From Saccharomonospora viridis DSM 43017 (GTDB taxonomy: Bacteria; Actinomycetota; Actinomycetes; Mycobacteriales; Pseudonocardiaceae): a stretch of DNA of 64,000 nt. Position numbers and translations under genes: made by a program. Location: assembly GCF_000023865.1 (NCBI RefSeq), contig NC_013159.1, positions 956,001 to 1,020,000 on the forward strand, written 5' to 3'. Below the pieces are notes generated by a model, which was not told the origin of the DNA, searched no databases, and saw nothing but the letters and a program-made list of their open reading frames with translations. This document shows positions 30,748 to 35,153 of the stretch, in pieces (position 1 is the first letter of the stretch; the number at the start of each line of letters is the position of its first letter).

Positions 30748-32253
30748 TCAGGCTGTTTCCTTCACCCGTTCCAGCTCGTCCGGGCCCGGGGCACGGTGCC
30801 GCAGCGACAGCAGTCCACCGAGCACCAGCGTGGTCACCACGCCGAGCGGCACGTACCACGGGAACGCCAGCGACTTGTCCTCGCCGTCGACGGTGAACGT
30901 CACGCCCAGGACCATCACGGCGGAGACGACGATCGTGCACAGGAACGCGATGATCGCGTCGGACTGCTGCGCCCGCTTGACGAGGATGCCGAGCGCGAAC
31001 GAGCCCAGCAGCGCGCCGTAGGTGTAGCTGGCGATGCTCAGCCCCACCTCGACCACAGGCTGGTCGGTGCTGGTGAACATCGACGCGAACACCACGAACA
31101 CGACCGCCCAGATCAGCGTCCACAGTTTCGCCTGCTTCAGCACGACCTCGTCCGGCAGCTCCTTCTTCGTCACCCGCTGGTAGATGTCGCTGACGGTGGA
31201 GGTCGACAGCGAGTTCAGCGACGAGGAGATCGTGCTCATGGCGGCGGCCAGGATGCCCGCGATCAGCAGGCCGGACAGGCCGGTGGGCAGCTGTTCGACG
31301 ATGAACATCGGGAACAGCTCGTCGTTGTTCGACAGGCCCATCGACTCCGGGGCGGCACCGTCGTAGAACGCCCACAGCATCGCGCCCACCAGCAGGAACA
31401 GCGCGAACTGGAGGAAGACCACCACACCGCTGGCGACCACGGCCTTCTGGCTGTCACGCACGTTCTTGCAGGCCAGCAGGCGCTGCACCATGAGCTGGTC
31501 GGCGCCGTGCGAGGCCATCGCGAACAGCGCGCCACCCACGACGGCGGTGATGAACGCGTACTGGTTGGTGACGATGTTGGACGTGAAGTCGAAGAACTGG
31601 AACTTGCCCTCGTCGGCCAGCGAACCGAACCAGCCGTCGGGCAGTTTGCCCGCGAGGAAGAACACCGCGGCCACCGCGCCGAGGATGTAGATGCCCATCT
31701 GGATCGCGTCGACCCAGATGACCGCCTTGATCCCACCCAGGTAGGTGTAGATGACGGCGACCAACGCGATAGCGGCGATGATCACCCAGTAGGGGACGTC
31801 GAGACCGAGTGCGGCGAGCACCATCTTGACCGGGATCGCGGTCGCGAACAGCCGCACACCGTCAGCGAGCAGTCGGGTGAGCAGGAACGTCACCGAGGCG
31901 GTGCCCTGCATGCCCTTGCCGAAGCGTTGCCCGAGGAGACCGTAGGCGCTGACGAGGTTGCCGCTGTAGTAGCGCGGCAGGAGTACGAAGGCCACCAGGA
32001 CACGACCGATGAGGTAACCGATCGCGAGCTGGAGGTACGTGACGTTGCCCAGGTAGGCCACGGTCGGCACGCTGATCACCGTCAGCGTGGACGTCTCCGT
32101 GGCGACGACGGAGAACGTCACCAACCACCAGGACACCCGTCTGTTGCCGACGAAGTAGTCGGCCGACGACTTCTGTTTGCCGCCGAGCCAGATGCCCAGC
32201 AGCGGCGAACCGACCAGGAATATCGCGATGATCGCGAGGTCCAGTGCGCGCAT
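30748..32253 (-). CDS. sodium:solute symporter (SSS) family protein
   Basis: A 501-residue carrier with about 13 membrane segments. Features typical of SSS transporters include GGKQKSSADYFVGNRRVSWW at the N-terminus, TYLGGIKAVIWVDAIQ and STISSSLNSLSTSTVSDIY. It starts with an ATG with GGAG upstream, 10 bases after anmK, so the two form an operon under a DasR-like box. That suggests an amino sugar such as anhydro-MurNAc or GlcNAc-related substrate, but substrate is inference only. Confidence 0.88.
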   Translation of the reverse strand: MRALDLAIIAIFLVGSPLLGIWLGGKQKSSADYFVGNRRVSWWLVTFSVVATETSTLTVISVPTVAYLGNVTYLQLAIGYLIGRVLVAFVLLPRYYSGNLVSAYGLLGQRFGKGMQGTASVTFLLTRLLADGVRLFATAIPVKMVLAALGLDVPYWVIIAAIALVAVIYTYLGGIKAVIWVDAIQMGIYILGAVAAVFFLAGKLPDGWFGSLADEGKFQFFDFTSNIVTNQYAFITAVVGGALFAMASHGADQLMVQRLLACKNVRDSQKAVVASGVVVFLQFALFLLVGAMLWAFYDGAAPESMGLSNNDELFPMFIVEQLPTGLSGLLIAGILAAAMSTISSSLNSLSTSTVSDIYQRVTKKELPDEVVLKQAKLWTLIWAVVFVVFASMFTSTDQPVVEVGLSIASYTYGALLGSFALGILVKRAQQSDAIIAFLCTIVVSAVMVLGVTFTVDGEDKSLAFPWYVPLGVVTTLVLGGLLSLRHRAPGPDELERVKETA

Positions 32254-32263
32254 TGGCTGTCTC

Positions 32264-33469
32264 CTACGGTGTGTCGGGGGGTGTGACCCGGAGTCGGGTC
32301 ACGGGTCGGGGGTGTGGTGTGGGCGGCAGTAACGGACCCGCCCCCGGGGTGATGGCGCCGAGCAGGCGCGCGCCGGCGGCGCCGGTCGCACTGGGCACGT
32401 TGGCGGGCAGTCCGTTCCAGGTCAGCCAGCCGAGCAGCGCGGTGAGGTAGGCCTCCTTGCCGTCGGAGGGCAGACCTTTGTCGTCACTGGGCACCACGGT
32501 GACCCGGGCACCCAACGCTGTCATGAGGGCGGGATTACGCAGTCCGCCGCCGGAGGCCACGACGGTGCTGACGCCGTGGCGCTCGCATTCGGCCGCCACC
32601 GTCGCCGCCGTGAGCTCGGTGAGCGTGGCGAGCAGGTCGGGGCCGTCGATCTCCGGCAGTCCCTCGACGGCCTGACGGAGATAGGCGGCGTGGAAATACT
32701 CCTTGCCGGTCGACTTCGGGGGGACCTGGGAATAGTACGGATCGGCCAGCAATCGCGATAGGAGGTCGTCGCGTACCGTCCCGCGTGCCGCGAGCGCGCC
32801 GTCGACGTCGCTGTGTTGCGCGCCGCCGGTCACCTCGGCGGCGGCGATGTCCAACAGCGCGTTGCCGGGACCGGTGTCATAGGCCAGTACCGAGCCGTCG
32901 GGGCGCACCACGGTGAGGTTGGCGATGCCGCCGATGTTGAGAGCGGCGACGGGCTTGCCCTCCCGTTCCGCTTCGGCGCGCAGCCACAGGGCGTCGAGTG
33001 TGCTCGCCAGCGGGGCGCCGTGCCCGCCCGCGGCGACGTCCCGCACCCGCAGATCCGCCACGACGGGTAGTCCGGTGCGTTCGGCGATCCACGCGGGCTG
33101 GCCGAGCTGGAGCGTTCCCTCGACCCTGCCTTCCTCGACCCAGTGGAACACGGTCTGGCCGAGGGAGGCGACGAGGTCGGCGCGGCCGTCCGCTATCTCG
33201 TCGATGACGGTGGCGGCGGCATCGGCGAACGCCTGCCCGATACGGGTGTCGAGTTTGGTGAGCTGCTCCGCGCTGCAGCCTGCGGGCGGGAGGGCGGCGA
33301 GGATGTCGCGCCGTAGTTGCTCGGGGTAGTCAAGCTCGCGGTAACCGAGCGGGGTCAGGGTGAGTTCGTCTTCGTCGGCGTGGAACGCGGCCACGGCCAC
33401 GTCGATGCCGTCCACCGACGTGCCGGACAGCAATCCGACGACTCGAAACTCGGACTTGCTTTCAACCAC
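32264..33469 (-). CDS. anmK: anhydro-N-acetylmuramic acid kinase
   Basis: A 401-residue kinase that phosphorylates and opens 1,6-anhydro-MurNAc, a cell-wall turnover product, to MurNAc-6-phosphate. The ATP-binding GLLSGTSVDGIDVAVAAF (about residues 12-29), NIGGIANLTVV and YDTGPGNALLD motifs are all present. The GTG start is only 4 bases from a DasR-like operator and has no SD, fitting a leaderless transcript. Located between smc and ftsY, an insertion relative to the usual core order. Confidence 0.94.
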   Translation of the reverse strand: MVESKSEFRVVGLLSGTSVDGIDVAVAAFHADEDELTLTPLGYRELDYPEQLRRDILAALPPAGCSAEQLTKLDTRIGQAFADAAATVIDEIADGRADLVASLGQTVFHWVEEGRVEGTLQLGQPAWIAERTGLPVVADLRVRDVAAGGHGAPLASTLDALWLRAEAEREGKPVAALNIGGIANLTVVRPDGSVLAYDTGPGNALLDIAAAEVTGGAQHSDVDGALAARGTVRDDLLSRLLADPYYSQVPPKSTGKEYFHAAYLRQAVEGLPEIDGPDLLATLTELTAATVAAECERHGVSTVVASGGGLRNPALMTALGARVTVVPSDDKGLPSDGKEAYLTALLGWLTWNGLPANVPSATGAAGARLLGAITPGAGPLLPPTPHPRPVTRLRVTPPDTP

Positions 33470-33472
33470 GCC

Positions 33473-33488
33473 AGTGGTCTAGTCCACG
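33473..33488. promoter_or_regulatory. DasR-like operator (dre)
   Basis: AGTGGTCTAGTCCACG matches the Streptomyces DasR consensus A(C/G)TGGTCTAGACCA(C/G)T at 14 of 16 positions and is palindromic in GTGG-N6-CCAC. DasR is the GntR-family repressor of amino-sugar genes released by GlcN-6-P. The site ends 4 bases from the anmK start and overlaps its predicted -10. Confidence 0.75.
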
Positions 33489-33504
33489 GCGGCCTCGTAC
33501 GCAA
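33476..33504 (-). promoter_or_regulatory. anmK promoter
   Basis: On the minus strand TTGCGT (33504-33499) is followed after 17 bases by TAGACC (33481-33476). The -10 lies inside the dre-like palindrome and the GTG of anmK follows after 6 bases, giving a leaderless, repressor-blocked arrangement. Confidence 0.5.
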
Positions 33505-33602
33505 GATGTTCGGTAAAGGATTGTCCGAAAAGATTTGTAATGAGTTGAACGCTGACCGTGCTTGTAGAGGGCGAACTGCCGCCGACGAGGCTGGATGCGA
33601 GG

Positions 33603-35153
33603 ATGACAAGCGTGTCGAACACCTGGTTGTGGATCATCGTCATCGCGGCCGTTGTGCTGTTGGTCGCACTCGCGGCCGGGCTGACGATCGCACGCAAGCG
33701 CCGGATCAGCCTGGAGCGCCGCGAGGAGGAAGAACGGCCCAAGGGCGGTCGGTATCAGGCCGGCGGCAGTATCACGCTGGCGCCGGGTGGGGAGAAGAAA
33801 ACGCCGATCCAGCCCCAGGCGCCACCGGAGCCGCCCCCGCACCCGGTGTCCGAGCGGACCGAGACCGACGGTGAGCCGGGGGTGGGCGAAGACGCCGCCG
33901 TCCCGCGGGACGCCCCTCGCCGGGACATCGTGGACGTCGGCCTGCCCGAGCAGACGCTTGAGGCTCCGGAGACGAAGCCTGTACCGAAACCGCGTCCGGA
34001 ACCCGAACCGAAGGCCGAACCCGAGGCGGCCCCCGAGCCGGCTGCCGAGGCCGCGCCAAAGGCCCAGCCCGTCACGGACGAGGCGACGCAGGCTCCCGCG
34101 CCCGAGAAGCCCGAAGCCGAGCCCGAGGTCGAGGCGGCTCCCGAGGCCGCGCCCGAGGTGCCCGCGCCCGCTCCTGAGGCGCCCGCTCCTGAGGCGCCGC
34201 CCGTGCCGAAGGAGGAGGTCGCGCCCGCGACCGGCCGGATCGAGCGACTGCGCGGTCGGCTGTCGAAGTCCCGTTCCGCGCTCGGGCAGAGCCTGCTGGG
34301 TCTGTTGGGCGCCGGTGACCTCGACGAGGAGTCGTGGGAGGACGTCGAGGACACGCTGCTCATCGCCGATCTCGGTGCCGCCACCACCACCGAGATCGTG
34401 GAGACGTTGCGTACCGAGCTGTCGGCCCGCGGTGTTCGGACGTCCGAACAGGCACGGGCGTTGCTGCGGGAGGTACTCGTCAACGCTCTCGGGCCGGACT
34501 CCGATCGCTCCGTACGCGCCCTGCCGCACACCGTGGACGGGACGAAGCAGCCCGCTGTGGTGCTCGTGGCCGGGGTGAACGGCACCGGCAAGACGACGAC
34601 CACGGGCAAACTCGCCCGGGTGCTCGTCGCCCAGGGACACGACGTGGTGCTGGGCGCTGCGGACACCTTCCGGGCCGCCGCGGCCGACCAGCTGCAGACC
34701 TGGGCGGAGCGCGTGGGAGCCGAGGTGATCCGCGGCAAGGAGGGCGCCGACCCGGCTTCGGTGGCGTTCGACGCGGTGAAACGCGGCATCAGCAGCGGCG
34801 TGGACGCCGTGCTCATCGACACCGCGGGCCGCCTGCACACCAAGACCGGCCTGATGGACGAGCTCGGCAAGGTCAAGCGGGTGGTGGAGAAGCAGGCGAA
34901 GGTGGACGAGGTGCTGCTCGTCCTCGACGCCACCACCGGCCAGAACGGTCTCGCTCAGGCCCGTGTCTTCTCCGAGGTCGTGGACGTCACCGGGATCGTG
35001 CTCACCAAGCTGGACGGCACCGCCAAGGGCGGCATCGTCTTCCAGGTGCAACGTGAGCTCGGCGTTCCGGTGAAGCTGGTGGGCCTGGGTGAAGGGCCTG
35101 ACGACCTCGCGCCGTTCGAGCCCGAGGCGTTCGTCGACGCGCTACTCGCCTAA
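33603..35153 (+). CDS. ftsY: signal recognition particle receptor FtsY
   Basis: A 516-residue SRP receptor GTPase for co-translational membrane targeting. It has an N-terminal membrane anchor (WLWIIVIAAVVLLVALAAG), a Pro/Glu/Ala-rich A domain (about residues 45-215), then the NG domain with P-loop GVNGTGKTTTTGKLA (about 325), DTFRAAAADQL, DTAGRLHTK (about 405) and TKLDGTAKGG. The ATG is chosen by the anchor; the frame is open 45 bases further up. Works with Ffh, encoded 9 kb downstream. Confidence 0.95.
   Translation: MTSVSNTWLWIIVIAAVVLLVALAAGLTIARKRRISLERREEEERPKGGRYQAGGSITLAPGGEKKTPIQPQAPPEPPPHPVSERTETDGEPGVGEDAAVPRDAPRRDIVDVGLPEQTLEAPETKPVPKPRPEPEPKAEPEAAPEPAAEAAPKAQPVTDEATQAPAPEKPEAEPEVEAAPEAAPEVPAPAPEAPAPEAPPVPKEEVAPATGRIERLRGRLSKSRSALGQSLLGLLGAGDLDEESWEDVEDTLLIADLGAATTTEIVETLRTELSARGVRTSEQARALLREVLVNALGPDSDRSVRALPHTVDGTKQPAVVLVAGVNGTGKTTTTGKLARVLVAQGHDVVLGAADTFRAAAADQLQTWAERVGAEVIRGKEGADPASVAFDAVKRGISSGVDAVLIDTAGRLHTKTGLMDELGKVKRVVEKQAKVDEVLLVLDATTGQNGLAQARVFSEVVDVTGIVLTKLDGTAKGGIVFQVQRELGVPVKLVGLGEGPDDLAPFEPEAFVDALLA

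Follow-up and report, generated by a model that had tools for sequence, protein, structure and literature searches.

In Streptomyces the regulator DasR (GntR/HutC family) connects the supply of amino sugars with the production of antibiotics; breakdown of the cell wall is one source of the sugars, and both GlcNAc-6-P and GlcN-6-P release DasR in this genus (PMC12680351, excerpt). The dre consensus is printed as A(G/C)TGGTCTAGACCA(G/C)T in PMC4398421 (excerpt), and DasR ChIP-seq data have been reported for Saccharopolyspora erythraea (PMC11076491, excerpt). For the related NagR, the relevant part of PMC4333415 describes an operator complex in which base contacts are made at G-7, G-5 and G-4 of the crystal DNA GTGGTCTAGACCAC, positions -3 to -1 being touched through the backbone only. 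A literature search of main texts found no paper naming DasR together with anmK, the gene for anhydro-N-acetylmuramic acid kinase. Works which pair DasR with anhydro-MurNAc or MurNAc, or with murQ (PMC12617635 and PMC12680351, excerpts), do not report control of anmK in the portions available, and the main text of the Streptomyces coelicolor DasR ChIP paper (PMC4398421) contains neither "anhydro" nor "murein". On the basis of the analysis described below, anmK is put forward as a new predicted target of this known regulator. A box beside its start codon is read as a DasR operator lying over the -10 element of a leaderless promoter shared by anmK and a sodium:solute symporter (SSS) gene, from which DasR would be released by GlcNAc-6-P or GlcN-6-P, a reading to which a probability of roughly 0.8 is given.

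Genomic Context of anmK

The window (the whole stretch of 64,000 nucleotides that was analyzed) carries anmK and the SSS gene on the minus strand, the latter beginning 10 nt past the end of the former, and the two probably share one transcript (Table 1). The gene for the SRP receptor, ftsY, is the divergent neighbor, for which the ATG at 33603 is a possible true start. No start codon for anmK is available farther upstream, because an in-frame TAG lies inside the box. This gene order is well kept among 35 named loci classed in the host family, which we take to be Pseudonocardiaceae: the SSS gene lies behind anmK in all 35 (one locus, L015, covers it partly) and ftsY is divergent in 34, the remaining locus (L030) ending before ftsY. 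Outside the host family a relative of the SSS gene also adjoins anmK, upstream in Microbispora and Nocardia and downstream in two Brevibacterium (L042, L079, L081, and L084). Any substrate proposed for the symporter is a guess from the position of its gene beside anmK. In the genome murQ was identified above its family cut-off.

Table 1. Features of the anmK region, in coordinates of the window.
Feature	Coordinates	Strand	Evidence and remarks
anmK, anhydro-N-acetylmuramic acid kinase	32264..33469	-	GTG start, probably leaderless; PF03702, E 3.4e-104; NF007146 above cut-off
Sodium:solute symporter (SSS) gene	30748..32253	-	PF00474; TIGR00813 above cut-off
ftsY (SRP receptor), divergent neighbor	33558..35153	+	PF00448, PF02881
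Putative -35, TTGCGT	33499..33504	-	TTGC (58) or TTGT (5), 17-18 nt from the -10, in 63/63 anchored loci
Putative -10, TAGACC	33476..33481	-	Inside the predicted operator; TANA in 33/33 one-per-genus sites, these sites being selected by TANACCAC match
Predicted DasR-type operator (dre)	33473..33488	.	14/16 to consensus; half-sites largely kept across 33 genera
Half-sites GTGG and CCAC	33487-33484 and 33477-33474	-	6 bases between them

The Box at anmK and Its Match to dre

The 16-mer AGTGGTCTAGTCCACG at 33473-33488, which reads CGTGGACTAGACCACT on the reverse strand (33488-33473), agrees with the dre consensus at 14 of 16 positions. The original prediction had placed such a match over the predicted -10 and near the anmK GTG, and this was confirmed by re-reading the sequence, with one correction: the gap between box and GTG (33469-33467) is 3 bases (33472-33470), the 4 bases first given being the difference of the coordinates. 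All six guanines read by a HutC regulator are present across the two half-sites, and the sole difference between the box and the NagR crystal DNA is at position -3.

The string match by itself is near chance and not significant. When ANTGGTCTAGACCANT was searched against the window with at most 3 mismatches allowed, it matched AGTGGTCTAGTCCACG alone, where shuffled windows gave 0.83 matches on average. Across the whole genome (4,308,349 bases, one contig) the anmK box is the sole exact occurrence of TGGTCTAGWCCA; when up to 2 mismatches were allowed, this pattern gave 270/282 against 273/289 for its reversed control, which is no excess. The full 16-mer occurs at 5 places in 4.31 Mb with at most 2 mismatches; relaxing the limit to 3 raises the number to 39, when the reversed control yields 33. 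The box is credible as an operator because it is conserved in relatives, and not through its resemblance to the consensus. The near-chance match speaks to some degree for an account that we consider improbable, namely that the conserved sequence is the promoter of a leaderless gene alone (-35 TTGC, -10 TANACC) and resembles dre by coincidence; the evidence from related genomes, given below, bears on it from both sides.

Three of the five best genomic matches to the 16-mer, that at anmK included, are found at amino-sugar genes. One of the other two occupies the intergenic region of dasR and a SIS gene, the latter being similar to GlmS and NagB-II models but scoring under their cut-offs; the other is likewise intergenic, with a nagE-like PTS gene (also under its cut-off) on one side and the gene of a second HutC regulator on the other. 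The two remaining matches look like chance, one being ~240 bases before an ORF (L101) and the other within an ORF (L102). A promoter-operator pattern derived from anmK gave 22 matches in 297 genomes (14 at anmK, 3 at GH18 chitinases and 5 others). The same pattern read backwards gave 18, so the number of matches beyond anmK is within chance; moreover, the gap in the pattern is one base too long for the site in the window itself, and the result can serve neither as a census nor as strong evidence. In Streptomyces, DasR has chitinase genes among its targets, and the kind of gene matched is suggestive only. The arrangement TTGC - GTGGNNTANACCAC was observed ahead of GH18 chitinase genes in three relatives (L199, L200, and L204), two of them of one genus.

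Conservation of the Box in Related Genomes

Sequences upstream of anmK were read in 79 host-family genomes, a chosen subset of the 224 out of 297 that possess anmK. The right half of the box, TANACCAC, was used as an anchor wherever 6 or 7 of its 7 bases matched near the start, which was the case in 63 of the 79 upstream sequences. One anchored locus was retained per genus (n = 33, including G035, which is without DasR). Counts for the right half are biased by anchoring on that half. In the left half, the 33 genera have G at -7 in 26, T at -6 in 31, G at -5 in 31 and, at -4, G in 21 and C in 9. Position -3 is A in 21, C in 8, T in 3 and G in 1, and position -2 is mixed. The mean match to GTGG was 3.3 of 4 bases in register, compared with 0.15-1.52 in 18 other registers. 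This is the footprint to be expected of a HutC dimer, because the base contacts of NagR fall on G-7, G-5, and G-4. A chance palindrome was set aside on this family-wide footprint, near to chance though the match alone is. When G-7 and the GG pair were counted together, one site per genus, both were kept in 14, G-7 only in 12, GG only in 5 and neither in 2; the counts lean toward a compensation of the kind described for Bacillus sites and prove nothing.

The footprint also weighs on two of the alternatives. Neither promoter hexamer includes GTGG, which is nevertheless largely kept across the 33 genera in one register only, and this is not what a promoter alone would lead one to expect. A reader that belongs to a different family, for instance a MurR/RpiR-like protein whose gene lies close to murQ, is suggested by a weak SIS-domain match just before murQ on the same strand, the product of which may be MurR-like, and by the MurR-like gene that S. 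coelicolor has beside murQ (PMC5061867, excerpt). The conserved bases, however, are those of the NagR half-sites at six-base spacing, and such a reader is considered highly improbable. The DasR reading is in keeping with the same bases, and the regulation proposed by the original prediction gains support from sequence comparison in that relatives keep both the bases which NagR contacts when bound to dre and the geometry of the promoter.

In the second collection, the 35 named loci of the family (mostly Amycolatopsis; L006 is a MAG), the right half was present in all 35, and the score of the GTGG-CCAC pair at the anchored place was 7-8/8 in 17, 6 in 11 and 4-5 in 7. Eight Amycolatopsis (L019, L025, L026, L030, L031, L033, L034, and L036) carry CTAAACCCC with a score of 4-6/8; here the promoter is kept and the left half has decayed, which would fit a promoter alone. 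Five of them (L019, L030, L031, L034, and L036) have a 7/8 pair, GTGGGTTGCGTCAC, over the -35 instead, possibly a shifted operator or a chance feature common to close relatives. In 45 loci from outside the family the right half was found in 4, none of which scored above 6/8 on the pair. A pair of 7-8/8 anywhere in the 155-base stretch was seen in 6 of these 45 loci, compared with 24 of the 35 inside the family.

The box was further compared with the presence of DasR. A match of 7-8/8 to GTGG-N6-CCAC at the best right half was found in 54 of 64 upstream sequences from genomes with DasR (the other 10 falling below 7/8) and in 3 of 15 from genomes without it. This contrast is weak evidence because the location of anmK differs, so that it is not independent of orthology: 12 of the 15 anmK-bearing genomes without DasR are without the box, and at least two of these (G028 and G042) have anmK beside murQ. 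The three which keep the box are G035 (99% complete) and G061 and G247 (92% complete, with congeners that have DasR). G035, assembled in 30 contigs, keeps a box of 7/8; a search for DasR at E 1e-60 found none there, and the single UTRA protein scores 65.7 bits. Its congener G069 has DasR and no anmK; a recent loss of DasR or an assembly gap is possible. Co-occurrence of anmK and dasR is strong: across the 297 genomes, both genes were found in 209, anmK only in 15, dasR only in 19 and neither in 54, counts which are uncorrected for phylogeny and rest on the best 6 (anmK) and best 9 (dasR) candidates per genome. Eight genomes (G078, G119, G167, G211, G219, G235, G243, and G250) have two DasR-like proteins (E 1e-80) and no anmK match (E 1e-60).

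A Probable Leaderless Promoter Overlapping the Predicted Operator

The pair TTGCGT-17-TAGACC lies where it had been claimed (33504-33499 and 33481-33476), and on the reverse strand TAGACC is followed by 6 bases and then the GTG. A generic promoter scan of the region called no promoter. Of the 63 anchored loci, 61 have their first ATG or GTG 4-6 nt past C+7. The -10 is situated ~6-8 nt ahead of the start codon, with no space for a ribosome site, and anmK is thus probably translated from a leaderless transcript. The conserved spacing of -35, -10 and start indicates that promoter and leaderless geometry are kept together with the predicted operator. The -35 and the -10 are the most constant parts of the region, as a promoter alone would have it. 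Against this stands the sixth position of the -10, which is C in all 33 anchored sites (TANACC in place of TANNNT; sites picked by the right half). The sigma-70 consensus prefers T at this position. The odd -10 would be understandable if operator and promoter shared bases, and the right half of the box may also serve the promoter. An extended -10 (TGn) as the reason for the conserved left half was rejected on the reasoning that the conserved T-6 and G-5 are too far upstream.

It had further been suggested that repression at the start codon itself is an uncommon layout. The sequence analysis gave no evidence for this; the predicted operator lies beside the start codon because a leaderless promoter places the -10 there, and by this reasoning its position is no new mode of repression.

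DasR and Other HutC Regulators

Absence of any DasR-type protein from the genome had been named as grounds for abandoning the prediction. An orthologue is present, matching S. coelicolor DasR (PDB 4zs8/9i0v) with E 1.5e-84, so no refutation arises here. Its residues aligned to Arg38, Arg48, and Gly69, with which NagR reads its DNA, are R, R, and G (with an inferred numbering offset of 3). Upstream of dasR, GGTNTAGACCA(A/T)T was found in 30 of 30 genomes read, that of the host included, and this site differs in flavor from the anmK box. The description of the regulator as responsive to GlcN-6-P holds for that compound and is incomplete, since the effectors named in the available parts of PMC4333415 and PMC12680351 are GlcNAc-6-P and GlcN-6-P.

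The genome encodes five UTRA-domain proteins, so that the box could be read by a HutC-type regulator other than DasR. One of them, L002 (1405-2340), is the second HutC regulator referred to above; its E-value is better against B. subtilis NagR than against DasR, and its gene adjoins the nagE-like PTS genes and has its own dre-like site (L100 1501-1516). A NagR-like protein of this sort, or another UTRA protein, could also account for the box of G035, which is kept without DasR. In 12 genomes which keep the box at 7-8/8, however, the only L002 match (E 1.9e-36 to 5.5e-39) falls on the DasR gene (G024, G008, G018, G027, G030, G033, G044, G045, G056, G013, G023, and G038; the best 38 candidates were scored in ten of these). 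One of the 12, G044 (one contig, 99% complete, all candidates scored), has no UTRA protein other than DasR, and its box is a full match (8/8). L002 was set aside as the reader on these grounds, and a HutC reader other than DasR is regarded as quite unlikely, somewhat more so than a promoter alone.

Proposed Mechanism

With DasR as the regulator, a dimer would bind GTGG-N6-CCAC over the -10, beside the start codon, and block RNA polymerase. AnmK would form MurNAc-6-P, MurQ would convert this to GlcNAc-6-P, and NagA would yield GlcN-6-P. A rise in GlcNAc-6-P or GlcN-6-P, both downstream of AnmK, would then cause DasR to leave the anmK promoter. The salvage operon would in this way be turned on by compounds formed further along its own pathway, as well as by GlcNAc, because the products of the MurQ and NagA steps are the sugar phosphates that release DasR. 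As far as can be predicted from sequence, it is thus probable that recycling of cell-wall sugars is activated by the products of that same breakdown.

A more far-reaching proposal, offered tentatively and with doubts that outweigh our confidence, is that in Pseudonocardiaceae the salvage of muramic acid is under direct DasR control by way of a conserved anmK-SSS operon, and that the SSS protein imports anhydro-MurNAc or MurNAc, driven by sodium. Products of cell-wall turnover would induce their own uptake in such a feed-forward loop. In other bacteria, import of anhydro-MurNAc and MurNAc is carried out by AmpG or PTS proteins. If a conserved DasR operator on anmK proves true, it would give the sensor a direct link to that half of wall recycling which handles muramic acid, and would name the SSS protein as a candidate importer.

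Comparison with Known Systems

The locus shares with the DasR regulon of S. coelicolor and S. erythraea a DasR orthologue, a dre-type site, and targets in amino-sugar metabolism. It differs at position -3, where the canonical dre has T and the anmK box has A. With the dre sites of NagR (YvoA) in Bacillus subtilis it has in common the GTGG-N6-CCAC arrangement, the contacted guanines and a regulator of the HutC family, whereas NagR has other targets and, in the native sites of Bacillus, one of the half-sites is the weaker (PMC4333415, excerpt). As in the AnmK-MurQ pathway of Gram-negative bacteria (PMC5061867, excerpt), genes for both the kinase and the MurNAc-6-P etherase are present. Unlike in that pathway, anmK is paired here with an SSS symporter gene and with a predicted DasR-type operator.
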